Assembly (NCBI GenBank): GCA_027064005.1
Contig: JAMOQM010000095.1
Span: forward strand, 1-40,622
DNA: 40,622 bases
Origin: Candidatus Cloacimonadota bacterium
Lineage (GTDB): Bacteria > Cloacimonadota > Cloacimonadia > Cloacimonadales > JAMOQM01
Reading direction: 5' to 3'
The first letter of the stretch is position 1, and each line of letters opens with the position of its first letter. Made by a program: the position numbers and the translations under genes. The notes below the pieces were generated by a model. It was not told the DNA's origin. It saw nothing but the letters and a program-made list of their open reading frames with translations, and made no database searches. This document shows positions 16 through 33,171 of the stretch, piece by piece.

Positions 16-951
16 ATGAAAAATGAATTAATAAAGCATTTCAAAAAGAAAAAAGTAGGTTTAGCTCTTGGTAGTGGTGGTGCAAAAGGACTATCACACA
101 TCGGAGTGATAAAATATTTAGAAGAAATGGGAATAAAAATTGATTTTATTACCGGTTCTAGTATTGGAGCCTTGATTGGAGGTGCTTATGCCAGTGGATT
201 GAGTATTGAAGAAATTGAGGATATTGCTTTGGAAACCGATCTTGCCTCCACAATAAAGCTTTTTTCTCCCGGATTTGGAAAATCAGGATTGGTTACAGGG
301 AAAAAAGTTCGGGAATTTCTAACCTCAATGTTAGGCAACAAAAACATAGAAGATATGCCAATTCCGTTTACAGCGGTAGCTGCAGATATAATCACAGGGG
401 AGGAAATACATTTTAATAAAGGAAATCTTGTCGAAGCAATTCGATCCAGCATTTCAATTCCAATCGTTTTTCAACCGGTGATCCGTAATAATAATGTTCT
501 TGTTGATGGTGGTTTGGTAAATCCTGTTCCGATAAATGTTGCTCGCGAAATGGGAGCGGATTATATCATTGCAGTTAATATTCTGTCCGCAAAAAATAGT
601 CCTGATCCGAAATCCGATAAAAAATTCAACAATAAAACAGATTTGGGAAAATCTCATAAAATCATTCCCGTTATGGAAAGAAAACTTGAAAATTTGATAA
701 TAGACCATAAATGGATAAGGAATTTCAACAAAAATAAAGATAAAGAAAATTTACCCGGAATGAAAAAAATATTAAATCGATCAGTTCAGATTGCTCAGGA
801 AAAATTGATCAAACTATCTATCGAATTATACAAACCGGATGTTTTGATAGAACCGGAAGTAGGAAATGTTGGCATATTCGATTTTTATAAAGCAAAAGAA
901 ATAATTAAAAAAGGATATATAGCTGCTGAAGCATTTATGAAAGAATATTAA
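16..951 (+). CDS. Patatin-like phospholipase family protein (RssA-like)
   Basis: ORF with GLALGSGGAKGLSHIGVI oxyanion loop, GSSIG nucleophile elbow and DGG motif (VDGGLVNPVP); RBS-like aggaga upstream. Confidence 0.93.
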   Translation: MKNELIKHFKKKKVGLALGSGGAKGLSHIGVIKYLEEMGIKIDFITGSSIGALIGGAYASGLSIEEIEDIALETDLASTIKLFSPGFGKSGLVTGKKVREFLTSMLGNKNIEDMPIPFTAVAADIITGEEIHFNKGNLVEAIRSSISIPIVFQPVIRNNNVLVDGGLVNPVPINVAREMGADYIIAVNILSAKNSPDPKSDKKFNNKTDLGKSHKIIPVMERKLENLIIDHKWIRNFNKNKDKENLPGMKKILNRSVQIAQEKLIKLSIELYKPDVLIEPEVGNVGIFDFYKAKEIIKKGYIAAEAFMKEY

Positions 952-969
952 AATAATAAGGAGAAATTT

Positions 970-1416
970 ATGAGAACAGGATTTATTTTTGGAAACAGAA
1001 TATTGGACATAGTTGTTGTCTCTTTGGTTGTTGCACAAACATTGAAAGTTATCTTTTATTTTTTCAAAGAGAAGAAATTGAATCTTAGAAAATATCTTGA
1101 TACCGGAAGTATGCCGAGTTCTCATTCTGCCTCGGTTTCTTCTCTTGCTACAGCAGTGGGGATATCGGAAGGGGTAGATTCTGTCTGTTTTGCTATCAGT
1201 TTAATATTTTCTCTTGTTGTTATGTATGATGCCACCGGAGTTCGCCAGGCAGTTGGTAAACAGGCTGTTGTCCTAAATAAAATGATAAATAATATTCGCA
1301 AGAAGGAAAATTCGGTGCTTTTTGAAGAAAATATGAAGGAATTAATTGGTCATACTCCCCTGGAAGTTTTAGCCGGTGCTGCTCTTGGAGTAACGATTGC
1401 TTTCGTGATGAGTTAA
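970..1416 (+). CDS. Divergent PAP2 family protein (DUF212, YuiD-like)
   Basis: TGSMPSSHSASVSSLATAVG and YDATGVRQAVGKQA motifs typical of the DUF212 family; 19 nt after the patatin gene. Confidence 0.92.
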   Translation: MRTGFIFGNRILDIVVVSLVVAQTLKVIFYFFKEKKLNLRKYLDTGSMPSSHSASVSSLATAVGISEGVDSVCFAISLIFSLVVMYDATGVRQAVGKQAVVLNKMINNIRKKENSVLFEENMKELIGHTPLEVLAGAALGVTIAFVMS

Positions 1417-1520
1417 AAATATTGGTTTTAAATGAATAGCATTTATTATTTTTTTAAAAAGGAATTTTAAGAATGCAAAAAAAACGAAACTGGTTTGATG
1501 TTTAAATTACTGAAAAAATA

Positions 1521-1691
1521 ATGATAAATCATACTTTTATTTGTCGCACGAGATTGATGGAAAAATCGCTTATATGTTGTAAAAGCAATGTTGTAATAGC
1601 AGCGGATGATCTTTCCGAGATTAACTTATTTGTTACAGAGTTCAACTCTGCTGTTCTTTACCAAAATTTATTACAGAACGTTGTAAAATGA
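1521..1691 (+). other. Small uncharacterised ORF (56 aa) in a 400-bp intergenic gap; possibly a gene remnant
   Basis: Manual translation MINHTFICRTRLMEKSLICCKSNVVIAADDLSEINLFVTEFNSAVLYQNLLQNVVK*; no convincing RBS; below the size cutoff of the supplied track. Confidence 0.2.
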
Positions 1692-1822
1692 TTTTCGAAG
1701 AAATGTTATTTAAAAAATCAAAGGGACAAGATATAAAGTCGTTACTATGACAAAAAAGACTTTACACGAAACCTGATGATTATAAAAAGGAAAAAATATC
1801 AAACTAAAAAGGAGGAATAATT

Positions 1823-2128
1823 ATGTTTGATCTATTGAAAAAAACAATGTTAACAGGAATTGGCATCGCTTCGATGACTAAAGAGAAAATTGAGGAACTC
1901 GGTAAGAAAATCTCGGAAGAAAGTAAGCTTACCGAAGAAGAAGGGAAGAAAATGGTTAATGATCTGCTAAAACAATCTGAAAAAGCAAGAGAGGATTTGG
2001 AAAATCAAGTTCAGAAACTTGTAAAACAGGCTTTGGAAAAATCAAATATTCCGACTTGGGAAGATTTGAACAGATTAGAAAAAAGAATTATAAAACTGGA
2101 AAATTTAGGAAAAGAAACAGACAAATAA
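1823..2128 (+). CDS. Phasin-like / coiled-coil protein
   Basis: Short, highly charged helical protein with phasin-like pattern (TKEKIEELGKKISEESKLTEEEGKKMVNDLL...); strong RBS aaaggagga. Confidence 0.7.
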   Translation: MFDLLKKTMLTGIGIASMTKEKIEELGKKISEESKLTEEEGKKMVNDLLKQSEKAREDLENQVQKLVKQALEKSNIPTWEDLNRLEKRIIKLENLGKETDK

Positions 2129-3819
2129 TGATACGAAAAATAGGGTCGATTGGAAACACTTATCGCCATATAAACCGTTATCGGGAAATCATAATTGTTC
2201 TTTTTAAGCATGGTTTTGGTGATTTGATCACCAATTCTCAAATTGAGAAATATCTTGATTTTGGTAAGAAGTTTATTCCCAATAAAAAAATTGGGGATAC
2301 AACCTCATTATCTCGATGGGAAAGAATCCGAATTGTCTTGGAGGAACTGGGACCTACTTTTATTAAATTCGGGCAAATTATGAGTAATCGCCCGGATATT
2401 TTACCGGAACCTTTGTTGGCTGAACTTGAAAAACTTCAGGATACAGTTCCTCCAATGCCAAATGAAGAAGCCAAAAAAATGATAGAACAAGAATTGGGGA
2501 AACCAATTTCAGAACTTTTCAAAAATTTTGAGCAGAAACCTATAGCTTCTGCTTCCATATCCCAAGTTTACCGAGCAGAACTATTCAGTGGAGCACAAGT
2601 TGCGATTAAAGTTCAACGTGCCGGAATTCAAAAAATGATCGAAACTGATTTGGAAATAATGTTTCACTTTTCCCTTTTAATGGAAAAACACATTACTGAA
2701 ATGGAAATATTAAATCCGGTTGAAACGGTAAAAGAATTTGAACGCTCTATCCACAAAGAAATTGATTTCAATATTGAAGCTTCCCATATAGAAAGATTTT
2801 CCAGAAATTTTCGAACCGATATGACTATCTATGTTCCCAAAGTTTATAAGGAATATTCAACAAAAAAAATCCTGACAATGGAATTTATCAACGGCATCAA
2901 AGTATCAAACCTAAAAGCTTTAAGAGAAGCGGGAAATGACCCTTTGCTTATTGCAAGTCAAGGTTGTGATCTTATTTTAAAACAAATATTTGAACACGGC
3001 TTTTTCCACGCTGATCCTCATCCTGGGAATATTTTTATCTTGAAAGATAATGTTACTTGTTTTCTTGATTTTGGAATGATGGGGTCTTTGTTGCCCAAGT
3101 ATCAGGATTATCTCGGAGATATTGTTTTGGGATTCGTGAACAACGATTCGAAGAAAATTAGTGAAACGTTTCTTCGACTTACAGGAACTTATAATATCGA
3201 AAATCGGGATCAATTGGAACAACAAGTTTCCGAGCTGGTCAATCAATATGCTTATGTTTCTTTGAAAGAAATAAAGGTTGGTGAACTTTTAAACAAACTT
3301 TTCGGAATATTGATAGATTTTAAATTAAGATTGCCTTCGAATTTTTATTTGCTTTCAAAAGCGTTGATAACTATTGAGGGAGTCGGAACGAAATTAGACC
3401 CTGATTTTGATATGGTTAAGCACATTAAACCTTTTGCAAAAAAGTTACTTAAAAAGCGATTGGATCCATTTAAATTGGCAAAAGATATGTATGCATCTGC
3501 GACGGACTTTCGTTTTTTACTTAAAGATTTTCCTTTTGAAATCAAGGAAATAATCAGGCAGGTTAAAAAAGGAAAATTGAAGGTTGAATTTGAACATAAA
3601 GGTTTGAATCCAATGCTTGTTACTCTCGATCAAATTAGTAATCGTATTGCTTTTGCCATTGTTCTGGCATCTCTCATAATCGGTTCATCTTTAATCGTGC
3701 TTTCAAAAATTCCCCCTCTGTGGAACGGGGTCCCGATAATTGGAATTGTGGGCTTTTTAGGAGCAGGGATTATGGGTTTTTGGTTACTGATTTCGATATT
3801 GAAGCATGCTAAGATGTAG
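2128..3819 (+). CDS. AarF/ABC1/UbiB family atypical kinase
   Basis: [54 protein letters not shown] motifs and C-terminal TM pair. Start taken at 2128 (TAATG overlap with the upstream stop) rather than the 2056 ORF start. Confidence 0.95.
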
Positions 3820-3906
3820 CCTGATTCTTATTTCCATTTCCGATATTTTTTTTTAAATGTATGATTCTTCTGTTGTAACTCTGAATATTGATAATTTTTT
3901 CTTTAT

Positions 3907-4767
3907 CTAATTTTCTATTGGTTCCGGATGAATAGTTACTTCAATACTTTTTTCACTTTTAATTTCATTTTCTATTTTAGTAATTAATGCGTGAGCATCT
4001 TTGAGACTCATTTTCGAATTTAAAAGAACATGGAATGTTAATTCCGAGTGAGTAATATAATTATGAATATGAAAATTATGAGGGCTAATATTTTCTTTTG
4101 CAATTTCGAAACTAATATTTTTAATATAATCAACCGTATCGGGAGTTGGTGCTTCACCTAAAATTTTATCAATCGTTTCTTTAATAATGGTAAAAGCAGT
4201 ATAGAAAATAATTAGTGAAATTATTATGCCCAAAATTTCATCAATAAAGGCACAATATTTTTTTAAGAAAATTCCAATAAGTATAATTAATGATGAAAAC
4301 GCATCACTTCTATGATGCCAACCGTCAGCTTTTACCGCCGTATTACCGGATTTTTTCCCAATCCAAAAGGCATACTCTGCCATAATTTCTTTAATTATGA
4401 TTGAGATTATAGTTACGATAATGGCTAATTTCCCAAAATCAATTTCCACTCGATTGAGATAATTTACGATTGAGTCTTTAAAAAATGATATTGAAACTAA
4501 AAATAGCAAAAAACCAATTATTAAAGTGCTGATAAGTTCATATCTTCCGTGTCCGTAAGGATGTTTTTCATCAGCCGGTTTTTGAGAAAATTTAGTCCCG
4601 ATAATTAAAACAAGAGAGGAAAAAGAGTCAGATAATGTATGCCATGAATCGGCAATTATTGCAATGGAGCCGGTTTGAATTCCGGCATAAAATTTGATAA
4701 TGAAAAGTAAAACATTACCGACAATAGATACAATTCCCTCTTTGAAAACTAAAGCCCGGTTTTTCAT
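3907..4767 (-). CDS. Cation diffusion facilitator (CDF) family transporter
   Basis: ADSWHTLSDSFSS and ADGWHHRSDAFSS metal-site motifs, six TM pattern, C-terminal cytoplasmic domain. Confidence 0.95.
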   Translation of the reverse strand: MKNRALVFKEGIVSIVGNVLLFIIKFYAGIQTGSIAIIADSWHTLSDSFSSLVLIIGTKFSQKPADEKHPYGHGRYELISTLIIGFLLFLVSISFFKDSIVNYLNRVEIDFGKLAIIVTIISIIIKEIMAEYAFWIGKKSGNTAVKADGWHHRSDAFSSLIILIGIFLKKYCAFIDEILGIIISLIIFYTAFTIIKETIDKILGEAPTPDTVDYIKNISFEIAKENISPHNFHIHNYITHSELTFHVLLNSKMSLKDAHALITKIENEIKSEKSIEVTIHPEPIEN

Positions 4768-5420
4768 TAAGATAATTCCAAAACTTTTTTTACTAACTTT
4801 TCAATACCGGTAAATACTTCATAAAATGCAGCATTGTTCATAAAAGCAGGTGTTGTTACGATTTTAAGTTTTTCATCGACAACTATTTCCGAGGAAGGAT
4901 AGGGGGTGTTTTTTGCTCCGATTTTTTGAACTTCTTCACCAATTTTTTCATCTAATCCAACCGTTACGTTTACTCCTTTTTCTCCGAAAATTAAAGATAG
5001 CAAAACCGGAAAAATACAAATCCCGCCGATTGGTTTTCCTAATTTATTCATCTCAAAAAGTAATTCTTTTAATTGGGGAGTGATTGTTCCGGCAAATCCT
5101 TCTTCCAAAAACGTTGAAAGATTTTTTGCTGCACCTGTTCCGCCGGGGAGAATTATGGCATCTAAATTTTCTGCTTTGGCTTCGGACAGGGGTTTGATTT
5201 TTCCACGAGCGATTCTGGCTGCTTCTATTAAAAGATTCCTGCTTTCGGGAACAGTTTCTCCGTTAAAATGATTTACTACATCTTTCTGTTTTGTGTCGGG
5301 AGCATAAATATTTATTTCCGCCTTGTATTTTGATAATGCTAAAATTGTATAAACTGATTCATGAATTTCCGAACCGTCTTTATGTCCGCTTCCGGCTAAA
5401 ATCACACCAACTTTTGTCAT
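4767..5420 (-). CDS. elbB: Isoprenoid biosynthesis glyoxalase ElbB-like (DJ-1/PfpI superfamily)
   Basis: GVILAGSGHKDGSEIHESV, PGGTGAAKNLS and KPIGGICIFPVLL motifs; overlaps the CDF start codon. Confidence 0.88.
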   Translation of the reverse strand: MTKVGVILAGSGHKDGSEIHESVYTILALSKYKAEINIYAPDTKQKDVVNHFNGETVPESRNLLIEAARIARGKIKPLSEAKAENLDAIILPGGTGAAKNLSTFLEEGFAGTITPQLKELLFEMNKLGKPIGGICIFPVLLSLIFGEKGVNVTVGLDEKIGEEVQKIGAKNTPYPSSEIVVDEKLKIVTTPAFMNNAAFYEVFTGIEKLVKKVLELS

Positions 5421-27508: not shown

Positions 27509-28723
27509 ATGAAAAAACAAAATATAATAATAACAATTTTATTGTTGATTGTTGGAATGTTAAACGCAAACTCAATTTTTTCCTTTTATGGATTTCCAAA
27601 TGAGCAAAAAAGTTTGGATACCTATAGTTTAGGAATGGGAGAAACCGGTTGCTCCGACTTATTTAGAGCAAGCACATCGTTAATGAACCCCTCACTCGCA
27701 GTAACAATTAATAACGTTAATTATGCAACTGCCATAAAAGCCGGTTATGTGAAATATGAAGATAATCTCAACAATTCTTTTTGGGATAATACCTCTTATA
27801 TGCCATATTTTAATGTCATTCTTCCATTATATAAAAATCATAGACTTGGATTTAATTTCTCATCGTATTTAACTGCAAATATCGACCAGAAATCAGATTT
27901 AATGACGGTTGATGATTTGAGCTATTATGAAAATCATAAACTTCATTCCGAGATTTATAATACGGAAGTTTTCTATGCTTTTAAAAATAAAATCGTAAAT
28001 ATTGGAATCTCAGGAAAATATTATTTCGGAAATAGAGTGGAATATTGGTCTCAAGATTTTCAAGATGACAGTCTTTTTAACGCTGCTTACGAAAATAACC
28101 AGACTTACAAAAATCCCGGGTTTTCTCTTGGATTAAGTAAAAAAATAAACAATTTTTCTTTTGGATTAGTCTATATTAATAAAACAAAATTAACAGGTGA
28201 TAAGAAATACACTACTATTCATAATGATTTCACAACTGTTTCAAAAGGATATACAATCCCGCAAGAAATTGATTTTGGAACTACTTGGAAAATGACTAAT
28301 ACAATCAAATATTCTTTGGATATGAATTATGAGAGATGGGAACAAACTTCTGATGATTACCGAAATACTTTGAAAATCGGTGGCGGTTTTGCTTATGATC
28401 CTTTGTGGGGTTATGGTAAATGGTATCAAAGAATTCCAGTCAGAGCCGGTGCTTATTTTCGCCAACTTCCTTTTCAATCTCAAAATAATGATGTTGACGA
28501 AATCGGGTTAACTCTTGGCTTAAGTGTACCTTTAAAAACTCCTGATAAAAAAATTAACATTGCTTTTAAAGCTAGTAAACGCGGGGATAGTTCTCATAAT
28601 CAATATCAAGAAAGTTCTTATTTCATTTCAATCGGATTTTCAGGATTTGATGTTTTTAAAAGTAGAGTTAAGAAAACAGGTGTGCGTGAGATTCCGATTC
28701 CTGATAAAAGTGGGGTTCAATGA
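27509..28723 (+). CDS. Outer-membrane beta-barrel protein (FadL/OmpP1-like)
   Basis: Signal peptide, GMGETGCSDLFRASTSLMNPSLAVTI, alternating beta-strand pattern, DFGTTWKMTNTIKYSLDMNYERWEQT. Confidence 0.72.
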   Translation: MKKQNIIITILLLIVGMLNANSIFSFYGFPNEQKSLDTYSLGMGETGCSDLFRASTSLMNPSLAVTINNVNYATAIKAGYVKYEDNLNNSFWDNTSYMPYFNVILPLYKNHRLGFNFSSYLTANIDQKSDLMTVDDLSYYENHKLHSEIYNTEVFYAFKNKIVNIGISGKYYFGNRVEYWSQDFQDDSLFNAAYENNQTYKNPGFSLGLSKKINNFSFGLVYINKTKLTGDKKYTTIHNDFTTVSKGYTIPQEIDFGTTWKMTNTIKYSLDMNYERWEQTSDDYRNTLKIGGGFAYDPLWGYGKWYQRIPVRAGAYFRQLPFQSQNNDVDEIGLTLGLSVPLKTPDKKINIAFKASKRGDSSHNQYQESSYFISIGFSGFDVFKSRVKKTGVREIPIPDKSGVQ

Positions 28724-30273
28724 TTTTAGAATGGAATTATGAAGGTAATGCCGAATTAAATTGTATCGAGCAATTTAAAAAAAATCGAAATTTTGCTGAT
28801 GATTTTTTCTCACCTACATTAGATTTATTACCTGATGAATATTTGATGAAAGATATCGAAAAAGCAGCAAATAGAATAATTAAGGCAATACGAGATAAAA
28901 AAAGAATCATTATTTTTGGTCATGACGATTTGGACGGAATTTCCAGTTCATATATCTTATATGATTTTTTGGAAAAAATGGGCTCGCAATATCATTACTA
29001 TTATATCCCAAACAGATTTAAAGATAATCACGGTTTACAACAGAATTTTATCGATTTAGTTGTTGAAAAAAAAATAGATTTGGTTATTACGGTTGACGGT
29101 GGAAGTTCATCTTTCGACGCTGTTGAAAAGTTGAATGAATTGGGCGTGGATGTCATAATAACTGATCATCATATTGTTCCTGAAAAACTTCCCAATGCTT
29201 TTGCCATAGTTAATCCTAAACAAAAAGATTGTTCTTATCCGTTTGATATGTTAGCCGGTGTTGGCGTAATTTTTATGGTTATAAAAGTTATGTGTAAAAT
29301 CCTAAATATTGAGATGCAGAAAGCTTATATTTTATGGGCAGCTGTCGGTTCTTGGGCTGATAAAGTTCCTCTGAATGGAGTTAATAGGATTTTAGTTAGA
29401 AATGCTCTGGACAATTGGTTGGAATATGAAGATGAATCAATGGAATTTTTTCATTACTATTACTCGATAAATAAATCTCTTTTTTCTAAATTTAATTTTA
29501 TGGCTTTTCTTACCAGGATTTTATCAAATGGAAGATCAGATAAAGGTATTCATTATGCAATGGAACTTTTAATATCGAAAATAAATAAAAAGAAATTTTA
29601 TGATATCTTAATGAAGGAAAAAATAGAAAATGAAAAAAAAATTGAAGAAGTCATTAAATTTTGTAACAAGATTTCGGTTGATAAAAGTCAAAATTATTTT
29701 ATTTACTATGATGAAAATGACGAGTTTCAATACAATTTAATCGGTTTAATTGCCTCCATTATTTCATCAAAATATAGAATCCCTGTCTTAATTTTCAAAA
29801 AGAAAAAAGATCAATTACTTTGTGAAGGAAGATGTACGGATGGATTTAATCTCGTTGAGTCTTTTGAATATTGTAAAGACGACCTTATCCAATTCGGTGG
29901 ACATTTTAAAGCAGCGGGATTTGTTGCCGATATAAATAAAATTGATGATATTGCCAGTAAATTCCGGTCTTTCGTAGAATTGAAAAAAGAAAATATCTTA
30001 AAAAATAAAAAAATTAATGTTGATATAGTTTTGGAAAATATCCAAGAATTAGGTAATTGCATTTATCTTTTTTCTGACTTTATTCCTTTTGGAATTGGAA
30101 ATCCCGAACCGAAAATTTTGGTTAAATCCTGTTTGTTTTCGGAACTTTCAAATTTGCCTAAAATAAATATTTCCGGTAATAATGATATATGTTTGACTAA
30201 AAAATATGATTTTCTTTTGTCATTCTCAAATAAAAATATGTTAAATATTGTAGATTACAGAATTAATGAATGA
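28720..30273 (+). CDS. RecJ-like DHH/DHHA1 phosphoesterase
   Basis: FGHDDLDGISSSYIL, DLVITVDGG, VDVIITDHHIVPE, MLAGVGVIF, QFGGHFKAAGF motifs. Confidence 0.9.
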   Translation: MILEWNYEGNAELNCIEQFKKNRNFADDFFSPTLDLLPDEYLMKDIEKAANRIIKAIRDKKRIIIFGHDDLDGISSSYILYDFLEKMGSQYHYYYIPNRFKDNHGLQQNFIDLVVEKKIDLVITVDGGSSSFDAVEKLNELGVDVIITDHHIVPEKLPNAFAIVNPKQKDCSYPFDMLAGVGVIFMVIKVMCKILNIEMQKAYILWAAVGSWADKVPLNGVNRILVRNALDNWLEYEDESMEFFHYYYSINKSLFSKFNFMAFLTRILSNGRSDKGIHYAMELLISKINKKKFYDILMKEKIENEKKIEEVIKFCNKISVDKSQNYFIYYDENDEFQYNLIGLIASIISSKYRIPVLIFKKKKDQLLCEGRCTDGFNLVESFEYCKDDLIQFGGHFKAAGFVADINKIDDIASKFRSFVELKKENILKNKKINVDIVLENIQELGNCIYLFSDFIPFGIGNPEPKILVKSCLFSELSNLPKINISGNNDICLTKKYDFLLSFSNKNMLNIVDYRINE

Positions 30274-30280
30274 GGTAATA

Positions 30281-30451
30281 ATGACGATAAATCCATATCT
30301 TTGTGATGTTTGTGGAACTTGTGTATCTGTTTGCCCTGTTGACGCAATTGTGGTTGAAGAAAATAGGGTTGTTCTTGATAATGAAAAATGTATTCGCTGT
30401 AGAAAATGCGTAATTGTCTGTCCGGTAAAAGCAATTTCGGAGAAAAATTAA
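30281..30451 (+). CDS. 2[4Fe-4S] ferredoxin
   Basis: Two CxxCxxCxxxCP clusters (CDVCGTCVSVCPVDAI; CIRCRKCVIVCPVKAI). Start taken at 30281 behind gaggtaata. Confidence 0.93.
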   Translation: MTINPYLCDVCGTCVSVCPVDAIVVEENRVVLDNEKCIRCRKCVIVCPVKAISEKN

Positions 30452-31644
30452 TGAGTATTATAAAAGATTATTATGATGTAATTGTGATTGGTGCCGGTCC
30501 GGCGGGAAGCGTTTCTGCCAGATTTGCCGCTGAAAATGGAGCTTCAACTTTGTTGCTGGAAAGAGATCAAGGTCCTGGAAATCCCGTAAGATGTGCGGAA
30601 GGTGTTTCTCATAATGGGATTGTTCCGTTTATCGAAATTGATCCCAAATGGATTTCTACTAAAATTGAACAAGCTCGTCTATATTCCCCAAATGGCGATT
30701 ATCTGGATATGTTTCAAAACGGAACCGGTTATGTTTTAGACCGAACTTTGTTTGATCCGGCTTTAGCAAATCTTGCCTGTCAAAAAGGTGCTCAACTTCT
30801 CACAAAAGCTGATGCAATTGGATTAATTTATGATAATGATAAAATTTCAGGCGTAAAATTTAGATATTTTGATAAAATTTATGATGTTAAATGTAAAATA
30901 GTTATTGGTGCAGATGGTATAGAATCTCGGGTTGGAAGATGGGCTGGAATTGATACGGTTTTGGATTTAAAGGATTTGGATACTTGTGTTCAATATACTT
31001 TAACGGGACTTGATATTTCCTCTCTTCGAGTAGATTTTTTCTTTGGAAGAGAAGTTGCTCCCGGAGGATATATCTGGATTTTTCCTAAATCAAAAGATAC
31101 TGCAAATGTTGGAATAGGAATTGCCGGTGATTTGGTAACCGATAAATCTCCTAAAGAATATTTGGATGAATTTATTGAAAAAAAATTTCCTAATGCTTCC
31201 GTTTTGAGATCTGTTTGTGGTGGCGTTCCAACTGCGAAAATGCTTAAAAACCCAATTACCGATAACCTTATTTTGGTCGGAGATGCTGCTCATCAAGTAA
31301 ACCCGATTACCGGCGGGGGGATTGTCCAAGTTATGATTGCGGGACAATTTGCCGGAGAAACTGCTGCGGAAGCAATTAAAGCCAATAATTACAGTGAAAA
31401 ATTCTTGAGAAAATACATCAAAAAATGGAATAACAGATTAGGTGCAAATCAAAGTTTTATGTATTCTGTTAAAGAAAAATTTATGAGAATGGATAATGAG
31501 CGATTCAATAATTTAGTTAAAATATGCTCAGCAATCCCTTCTGAAAAATTAACCTTGAAAGAATTTTTTAAAACGATTGTTAAAGGTGACCCGATGATGA
31601 TTTTACAATTAGCCAAAGCTTTTGTTACTTCAAAATTAAAATAG
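30451..31644 (+). CDS. Geranylgeranyl reductase family FAD-dependent oxidoreductase (archaeal DGGGPL-reductase-like)
   Basis: DVIVIGAGPAGSVSARFAAENGA, PVRCAEGVS, GGYIWIFPKSKDTANVGIGI, LVGDAAHQVNPITGGGI. Start at 30451 (TAATG overlap). Confidence 0.92.
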   Translation: MSIIKDYYDVIVIGAGPAGSVSARFAAENGASTLLLERDQGPGNPVRCAEGVSHNGIVPFIEIDPKWISTKIEQARLYSPNGDYLDMFQNGTGYVLDRTLFDPALANLACQKGAQLLTKADAIGLIYDNDKISGVKFRYFDKIYDVKCKIVIGADGIESRVGRWAGIDTVLDLKDLDTCVQYTLTGLDISSLRVDFFFGREVAPGGYIWIFPKSKDTANVGIGIAGDLVTDKSPKEYLDEFIEKKFPNASVLRSVCGGVPTAKMLKNPITDNLILVGDAAHQVNPITGGGIVQVMIAGQFAGETAAEAIKANNYSEKFLRKYIKKWNNRLGANQSFMYSVKEKFMRMDNERFNNLVKICSAIPSEKLTLKEFFKTIVKGDPMMILQLAKAFVTSKLK

Positions 31645-31645
31645 T

Positions 31646-32230
31646 ATGAGTAAAACAAACGAATTATACCGAAAATCAATTCATATCAGTTCTTTGCTGA
31701 TTCCATTTTCCTATAGATATTTATTTGGATATGATAAGAAAATAATGCTTTCAATTCTATTGCCTTTGACTATTATCTCAATTTTAGTTGAGATTTTTAG
31801 ACTTGAACATAAAACATTTAAGCGAATTTTTCATCAAGTTTTTGGAATAATGTTAAGAAAGCATGAGTTAAAAGAACTAACCGGAGCATCTTTTCTATTA
31901 ACTTCTTCTATCATTGTTATCTCCTTATTTCCTAAAGATGTAGCGTTTTGTTCATTAGCCTTTTTAGCAATTGGTGATACTTTTGCAGCTTTGATCGGTA
32001 TTCCTTTTGGAAAAAGAAAAATTAAAGGTTATAAGAAAAGTATTGAAGGAAGTTTGGCCTGTTTCGTAACGACCTTTGTTTTTGCATTATTTTATATTTC
32101 GCCATTTGTGGCATTTATTGGAGCGATTTCAGCAACTTTGGCTGAATTATCCAAAATTCCTGTTGATGATAACATTAAAATACCGCTCTTCTCTTCATTG
32201 GGAATGAGTATAGCTCTTCTTTTTGTATAG
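31646..32230 (+). CDS. Diacylglycerol/polyprenol kinase family protein (SEC59/DGK1/VTE5-like)
   Basis: RKSIHISSLLIP, HELKELTGASFLL, AFLAIGDTFAALIGIPFGKRKIKGYKKSIEGSLACF motifs and multi-TM profile. Confidence 0.88.
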   Translation: MSKTNELYRKSIHISSLLIPFSYRYLFGYDKKIMLSILLPLTIISILVEIFRLEHKTFKRIFHQVFGIMLRKHELKELTGASFLLTSSIIVISLFPKDVAFCSLAFLAIGDTFAALIGIPFGKRKIKGYKKSIEGSLACFVTTFVFALFYISPFVAFIGAISATLAELSKIPVDDNIKIPLFSSLGMSIALLFV

Positions 32231-32238
32231 GTGATAAA

Positions 32239-33171
32239 ATGAAAATTTCTTTTGTGATTCCGGTTTTTAATGAAGAAAACAGCTTGGCAATTCTTCATAA
32301 AGAAATTCTTGAAAATATTAATAGCTATTCTTATGAAATAATTTTTATTGATGACGGAAGCACTGATAAAAGTTACGAAATTATTAAAGATATCTCAAGG
32401 AAAGATAAGAATGTAAAAGCGATTAAATTCCGGAGAAATTTTGGGAAAGCTGACGCTCTTCAAGCAGGATTCTCATACGTAACCGGCGATGTTGTTTTTA
32501 CAATGGATGCAGATCTTCAAGATAATCCCATTGAAATTCCTCGATTTATTAACGAAATAATAAATGGATATGATTTGGTTTCAGGCTGGAAAAAGAAAAG
32601 GCACGACCCTTTATCAAAAAAAATTCCTTCGAAAATTTTCAACTTTATCACTTCAAAGGCTGTTGGATTAAAACTAAAAGATTTTAATTGCGGTTTTAAA
32701 GCTTATAAAGCTCAGGTAGTGAAAGAATTAGATATTTATGGAGATATGCACAGATATATTCCGGCACTTGCTTTTGCGAAAGGCTTTAAAATTAAAGAAA
32801 TTGTTGTAGAACATCGTGAGCGGAAATTTGGAAAATCAAAATACGGAATTGAAAGATATTTAAGAGGTTTTTTTGACTTACTTACCGTGAAGTTAATTAC
32901 CGGATTTACTCGAAGTCCATTGTATCTTTTTGGAAAAATAGGTTTGTTTTTTGGCGGGATTGGTTTTGTAATTACGTCTTACCTTTCTTATTTAAAAATC
33001 TTTGAAAATGCTAGTTTGAGTAATAGACCAATGCTTTCGTTAGGAGTTTTATTGATTTTAGCCGGCTTACAATTTTTTTCAATTGGATTAATTGGCGAAT
33101 TATTAGTTAACCAAACCAGAAAACACAATAAACAAACAAATGTATCTATTGAAGATAAAATAAACATTTAA
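32239..33171 (+). CDS. Family 2 glycosyltransferase, DPM1/GtrB-like polyprenyl-phosphate sugar transferase
   Basis: VIPVFNEENSL, IDDGSTDKSYEI, FRRNFGKADALQAGF, MDADLQDNP, HRERKFGKSKYG, two C-terminal TM helices. Confidence 0.93.
   Translation: MKISFVIPVFNEENSLAILHKEILENINSYSYEIIFIDDGSTDKSYEIIKDISRKDKNVKAIKFRRNFGKADALQAGFSYVTGDVVFTMDADLQDNPIEIPRFINEIINGYDLVSGWKKKRHDPLSKKIPSKIFNFITSKAVGLKLKDFNCGFKAYKAQVVKELDIYGDMHRYIPALAFAKGFKIKEIVVEHRERKFGKSKYGIERYLRGFFDLLTVKLITGFTRSPLYLFGKIGLFFGGIGFVITSYLSYLKIFENASLSNRPMLSLGVLLILAGLQFFSIGLIGELLVNQTRKHNKQTNVSIEDKINI

Follow-up and report, generated by a model that had tools for sequence, protein, structure and literature searches.

An archaeal-type geranylgeranyl reductase and its ferredoxin share a conserved Cloacimonadota operon with a lipid-kinase candidate and a predicted polyprenyl-phosphate glycosyltransferase

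Results and Discussion

A probable two-module operon in Cloacimonadota

Cloacimonadota genomes harbor a conserved operon in which a 2[4Fe-4S] ferredoxin (Fd) and an archaeal-type geranylgeranyl reductase (GGR) precede a SEC59-like lipid-kinase candidate and a GT2 glycosyltransferase (GT), as established from gene identities, motifs, synteny and co-distribution at the sequence level. We regard it as likely that these genes make up two functional modules, the Fd-GGR pair saturating archaeal-type ether lipids and the SEC59-GT pair fulfilling a separate role related to polyprenols or sugar carriers. In the first module, a FAD-dependent GGR fed electrons by its own 2[4Fe-4S] ferredoxin would act on an archaeal-type diether lipid, saturating its geranylgeranyl chains. 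Building this lipid would fall to enzymes encoded elsewhere in the genome: a polyprenyl (GGPP) synthase, the GGGP synthase (GGGPS) of contig C56 and, from contig C91, a DGGGP synthase-like UbiA protein; its head groups would be added via the bacterial CdsA route, CarS being absent. In the second, a presumed CTP-dependent kinase would phosphorylate undecaprenol (or diacylglycerol) in place of DgkA, which is missing, and the loading of a sugar onto polyprenyl phosphate for the envelope would be the task of an ArnC/GtrB-like transferase; this module occurs nearly throughout the phylum and has no need of GGR.

A role in ether-lipid saturation has already been proposed for this phylum, GGR included. 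Villanueva et al. (2021) described an ether-lipid pathway in Black Sea Ca. Cloacimonetes that comprised archaeal-related GGRs but was missing CarS and G1P dehydrogenase, and found the Cloacimonetes GGGPS and DGGGPS to be active in E. coli, where the product was fully unsaturated for want of GGR (PMC7852524). The host genome studied here belongs to the same phylum and shares with that pathway GGGPS, a polyprenyl synthase, an archaeal-related GGR and the absence of CarS, and has a DGGGPS-like UbiA protein. What is new is the conserved operon, the presumably dedicated ferredoxin, the split into two modules and the occurrence of GGGPS-independent GGRs: the main text of PMC7852524 reports GGR but not its ferredoxin, its operon, covariation with GGGPS across 125 genomes or GGRs outliving GGGPS, and when its text was searched neither an operon nor a gene cluster was found mentioned, while ferredoxin occurred in a reference title only.

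Layout and conservation of the locus

The window, meaning the whole 40,622-nt stretch of DNA that was analyzed, is contig C95 (JAMOQM010000095.1) of a 2.4-Mb Cloacimonadota host genome (GCA_027064005.1) with a completeness score of 100%. The features of interest are as follows.

27509 to 28723, + strand: PorV-like outer-membrane protein (NCBIfam NF053685, 127.6 bits, below the cut-off of 250), first gene of the syntenic block
28720 to 30273, + strand: RecJ-like DHH/DHHA1 protein (PF01368, E=4e-26; TIGR00644, 305.7 bits, below the cut-off of 396.9), syntenic
30281 to 30451, + strand: 2[4Fe-4S] ferredoxin (Fer4 matches; two CxxCxxCxxxC motifs, 8 cysteines)
30451 to 31644, + strand: archaeal-type geranylgeranyl/digeranylgeranylglycerophospholipid reductase (FAD), identified by GGR_cat, NF041160, 3oz2, motifs and tree
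31646 to 32230, + strand: SEC59/DGK1/VTE5-like (COG0170-type) integral-membrane lipid-kinase candidate, presumed CTP-dependent (motif DTFAALIGIPFGKRKIKGYKKSIEG, AlphaFold model, CdsA-like fold)
32239 to 33171, + strand: GT2 polyprenyl-phosphate glycosyltransferase, probably of the ArnC/GtrB type (PF00535, PDB 9hwj and 5eke, motifs, two C-terminal hydrophobic helices)

The last four genes span 30281-33171, all in frame, with spacings of -1 to +8 nt: the ferredoxin gene starts 7 nt after the DHH gene and overlaps GGR by 1 nt (TAATG), and gaps of 1 nt and 8 nt separate GGR from the SEC59-like gene and the latter from GT, respectively. The four near-contiguous genes behind a RecJ-like DHH gene that had originally been predicted from this DNA were thus borne out. 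The PorV-like gene overlaps DHH by 4 nt, extending the syntenic unit further upstream. Conserved linkage in relatives, which the prediction had made a check of its proposal, was found as well, the order PorV-DHH-Fd-GGR-SEC59-GT recurring in many families of the phylum among the 125 Cloacimonadota genomes searched; in one relative, a Candidatus Cloacimonadota metagenome-assembled genome (locus L002), gene order was identical and GGR was 57% identical to that of the window. Because this order recurs over much of Cloacimonadota, the four-gene grouping is not due to chance. The RecJ-like DHH protein, which scores below the cut-off for RecJ, is syntenic with PorV and SEC59-GT phylum-wide and has no evident lipid role.

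Identity of the reductase and its ferredoxin partner

The window GGR matched PF22578 GGR_cat (E=7e-28; 96.7 bits against a cut-off of 27) and the GG-reductase superfamily model TIGR02032 (220.5 bits, above the cut-off of 158.8), and was the single GGR_cat match in a genome-wide profile search of the host. Its best equivalog was NF041160, the Thermoplasmatales DGGGPL reductase; because the score of 296.9 bits lies under the cut-off of 780 of this narrow, Thermoplasmatales-specific model, the protein is named here an archaeal-type GGR and not a certified equivalog. The closest solved structure was the Thermoplasma reductase 3oz2 (E=6e-79, about 38% identity), and alignment with 3oz2 and 4opl revealed the presence of all the motifs taken from PMC10821996, namely GxGxxG, the conserved Cys, RxxFD, PxxYxWxFP and LxGD. 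In phylogenetic trees, which include few archaeal sequences and from which the exact donor lineage cannot be read, the Cloacimonadota GGRs grouped with 3oz2, apart from BchP and other bacterial (actinobacterial) GGRs. The structural match, motifs and tree thus uphold the archaeal-like character first ascribed to this protein, which is most likely an archaeal-type reductase predicted from its sequence to reduce DGGGP or its lipids.

That GGR might act instead on a quinone tail or a chlorophyll chain, as MenJ- or BchP-type enzymes do, draws on the flavoprotein superfamily common to all of these proteins and appears extremely improbable: scores were only 67 bits with the MenJ model and 140 with that of BchP, compared with 297 for Thermoplasma DGGGPL reductase, the split of the window GGR from BchP carried full tree support, and the sole UbiA protein of the host is DGGGPS-like. 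A quinone or chlorophyll reductase identity was rejected on HMM scores, motifs and tree; a placement among menaquinone- or chlorophyll-type enzymes, which would have spoken against the original prediction, did not occur. Two genomes of family f2 (G048, L137; G049, L138) encode, outside the operon, another GGR-superfamily flavoprotein of ~30% identity that is devoid of the catalytic Cys motif.

Of 59 distinct loci, 54 have a 2[4Fe-4S] ferredoxin ORF immediately 5' of GGR, and two of the remaining five are contig edges. The GGR of Methanosarcina acetivorans requires a ferredoxin encoded in its own locus (PMC10821996); the ferredoxin at 30281..30451 is presumably the dedicated electron donor of the window GGR, to which we infer that it transfers electrons. 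Archaeal Fd-GGR loci (M. acetivorans, Thermococcus, Thermoplasma; PMC10821996) resemble this one both in encoding a 4Fe-4S protein and in the PxxYxWxFP, LxGD, RxxFD and catalytic-Cys motifs of their reductases, but the window locus is bacterial and its operon is common to DHH, SEC59-like and GT genes. Fd and GGR behave as a unit, as shown by family f13, where the two are found together next to glycine-cleavage-like genes (names read from sequence) and several genes away from SEC59-GT.

Ether-lipid genes elsewhere in the host genome and in the phylum

The genes expected to supply a substrate to GGR are located on contigs other than that of the window, in what is a metagenome-assembled genome. 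The GGGPS gene (G000:C56:4608-5366) scored 223.7 bits with TIGR01769, above the equivalog cut-off of 161.55. A UbiA protein (G000:C91:5012-5839), encoded directly after a polyprenyl synthase and the only UbiA of the host, exceeded the UbiA cut-off and had DGGGP synthase/prenyltransferase models as its best equivalogs, yet fell short of the curated cut-off in each of the DGGGPS equivalog models. In many relatives, the UbiA gene directly neighbors GGGPS. Thus, of the two synthases that the original prediction had pointed to, GGGPS was found above cut-off and DGGGPS is represented only by this sub-cut-off UbiA protein. CarS was missing from the host genome and yielded one marginal match among 125 Cloacimonadota genomes, whereas CdsA was present in the host, adjoining uppS; a search of the host genome for G1P dehydrogenase returned only a weak, superfamily-level Fe-ADH_2 match (36.9 bits). 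Squalene/phytoene synthase (SQS/PSY) was absent from all 125 genomes searched, and carotenoids or squalene were rejected as GGR substrates on this ground; given this absence and the DGGGPS-like nature of the sole host UbiA, few rival substrates are left for GGR.

On contig C56 of the host (936-5366; locus L113), GGGPS is followed by CpsB/CapC-like, NAD-epimerase, methyltransferase and LPG-synthase-TM (flippase-like) genes, an order that is identical in G083 and G097. This neighborhood is possibly a head-group or export cluster.

GGR tracks GGGPS and not SEC59

Co-distribution was analyzed in the 125 Cloacimonadota genomes, with a strict set of 75 genomes at least 90% complete. In this set, the presence of GGR and that of GGGPS agreed in 72 genomes, 38 having both and 34 neither; the mismatches consisted of two genomes with GGR only (G052 and G086) and one with GGGPS only (G065). 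Since G065 is without SEC59 as well, its missing GGR probably reflects an assembly gap. GGR and SEC59, in contrast, were not correlated (37 genomes of the same set with both, 34 with SEC59 only). When mapped on a tree of flanking proteins, the data amounted to two changes for GGGPS, four for GGR and three independent pairs; with so few label changes, only a handful of evolutionary events underlie the GGR/GGGPS correlation and the Fisher p-values for co-distribution are not true probabilities. The archaeal-type ether-lipid branch that had been envisaged as one option thus gains support from the GGGPS and DGGGPS-like UbiA genes of the host and from GGR tracking GGGPS across the phylum.

SEC59 itself was found in 109 of the 125 genomes. 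Family f2 (50 genomes) is the most telling in this respect, with GGGPS in none, archaeal-type GGR in one and SEC59 in 46, and with UbiA missing from most; in the f2 loci inspected, DHH was directly followed by SEC59 and GT, as if Fd-GGR had been excised or never inserted. Outside f2, G054 and G056 displayed the same DHH-SEC59-GT arrangement devoid of Fd-GGR, and G060 had SEC59-GT without GGR. Because SEC59-GT is kept where Fd-GGR is missing, it is independent of GGR. SEC59 and GT appear to be the older genes of the operon, probably serving to make or recycle sugar-carrier lipids.

This distribution also bears on whether the four genes serve one pathway, in which GGR and Fd would partly saturate a dolichol-like polyprenyl phosphate carrier, the SEC59-like protein would phosphorylate the saturated polyprenol and GT would load the sugar, perhaps alongside ether lipids as in Haloferax. 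That the genes are packed almost without gaps into one operon in much of the phylum speaks for such an arrangement, as does the finding that a single archaeal GGR, in H. volcanii, influences dolichol phosphate as well as diether lipids (PMC10821996). The co-inheritance of kinase and GT with the reductase that a dolichol-type pathway would entail was nevertheless not observed: most f2 genomes as well as G054, G056 and G060 have retained SEC59 (and GT in the loci inspected) in the absence of GGR, GGR is uncorrelated with SEC59 while being tightly matched to GGGPS, and the f13 Fd-GGR pair sits away from SEC59-GT. We therefore consider a single four-gene pathway of this kind unlikely, and as a main reading of the locus this earlier proposal is unsupported.

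Salvage of prenols was considered as well, with the SEC59-like protein as a phytol/geranylgeraniol kinase and GGR turning GGPP or geranylgeranyl phosphate into phytyl chains. The VTE5 phytol kinase is a member of the same kinase family, and the kinase gene adjoins GGR; SEC59 is, however, near-universal in genomes without GGR, and the phylum offers no chlorophyll, tocopherol or carotenoid context, SQS/PSY being absent throughout and UbiA from most of f2. We give salvage very little credence.

The SEC59-like kinase candidate and the glycosyltransferase

The SEC59-like protein matched no NCBIfam model, found nothing in the PDB by sequence search, and was recognized weakly by the Pfam model CTP_transf_1 (E=9e-4, below the cut-off). 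It carries a DxxAxxxGxxxG-x7-KKSxEG motif that was kept, as DxxAxxxGxxxG-x7-K(K)(S/T)xEG (S or T; one or two K), in all 44 of 44 orthologues. We take DxxAxxxGxxxG...K(S/T)xEG to be the signature of the SEC59/DGK1/VTE5 family. Its AlphaFold model (pLDDT 94) is that of an all-helical, polytopic membrane protein, whose nearest solved fold was CdsA (probability 0.99-1.00; TM score (TMq) 0.41; E about 0.02). Lombard described dolichol kinases as distantly akin to CdsA and rare in prokaryotes (PMC5088576). The window protein thus shares with SEC59/DGK1/VTE5 (COG0170) kinases a small polytopic membrane architecture, the DxxAxxxGxxxG-x7-8-K(K)(S/T)xEG motif and a distant CdsA-like fold, but differs in being bacterial, short (194 aa) and below the CTP_transf_1 cut-off.

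DgkA was missing from 124 of the 125 genomes. A DAGK_cat lipid kinase is present in the host genome, so that the SEC59-like protein is not the sole kinase candidate there, and the notion of it being the only lipid kinase of the host was discarded. In f2, DgkA and DAGK_cat are nearly always missing, and the SEC59-like protein is the only recognized lipid-kinase candidate. A function as a CarS substitute was rejected as the main reading, since the gene is retained where ether-lipid genes are lacking and CdsA is present. In the simplest reading, the SEC59-like protein probably acts as a kinase of general function on polyprenol or diacylglycerol, with substrate and use of CTP as donor both predicted.

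GT matched PF00535 (E=1e-33) and, over nearly its full length, PDB 9hwj (ArnC; E=6e-48) and 5eke (sll0501/GtrB-type; E=6e-30). It displays IDDGSTD and DADLQD motifs and, like ArnC, GtrB and sll0501, a GT2 domain followed by two C-terminal hydrophobic segments; unlike ArnC, it scored under the NCBIfam ArnC equivalog cut-off. It is probably a polyprenyl-phosphate sugar synthase of the ArnC/GtrB type.

GGRs retained without ether-lipid genes

Two genomes, G052 (family f4, 99% complete) and G010 (f2, 74%), kept Fd-GGR in the operon slot between DHH and GT while having no detectable GGGPS and no UbiA. Their GGRs (L103 6153-7352 and L099 1913-3088, respectively), each accompanied by a ferredoxin, are divergent archaeal-type proteins, 36% identical to that of the window, with largely intact catalytic motifs. 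In G010, SEC59 lies beside GGR, and the presence of f2-type downstream genes indicates that the locus is not a stray contig. A single clade of all Cloacimonadota GGRs including these two was neither rejected by the AU test (p 0.32) nor demonstrated. In the absence of GGGPS and UbiA, some Cloacimonadota GGRs must either use another substrate or be decaying. The proteins of G052 and G010 are thus either enzymes with a new substrate or late relics; GGPP and polyprenyl phosphate are the obvious substrates, since squalene/phytoene synthase is missing too.

The retention of reductase genes beside GT (and SEC59 in G010) in these genomes is what keeps a dolichol-like carrier under consideration. There is some modest chance, slightly better than that of the four genes forming one such pathway, that Fd-GGR also, or solely in some lineages, partly saturates the polyprenyl phosphate carrier of GT. 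GGRs that have outlived GGGPS provide a direct test case for a dolichol-like carrier in any bacterium. For the preferred ether-lipid role of Fd-GGR, the locus provides both the step that saturates the chains and the likely source of its electrons, hence the parts for testing bacterial synthesis of fully saturated archaeol-type lipids. Bacteria whose membranes may combine archaeal and bacterial lipids are also relevant to the 'lipid divide'. Finally, one genome bin, G062, was found to hold two GGR-SEC59 pairs (G062:C16 and G062:C81), whose GGRs are 53% and 55% identical to that of the window.
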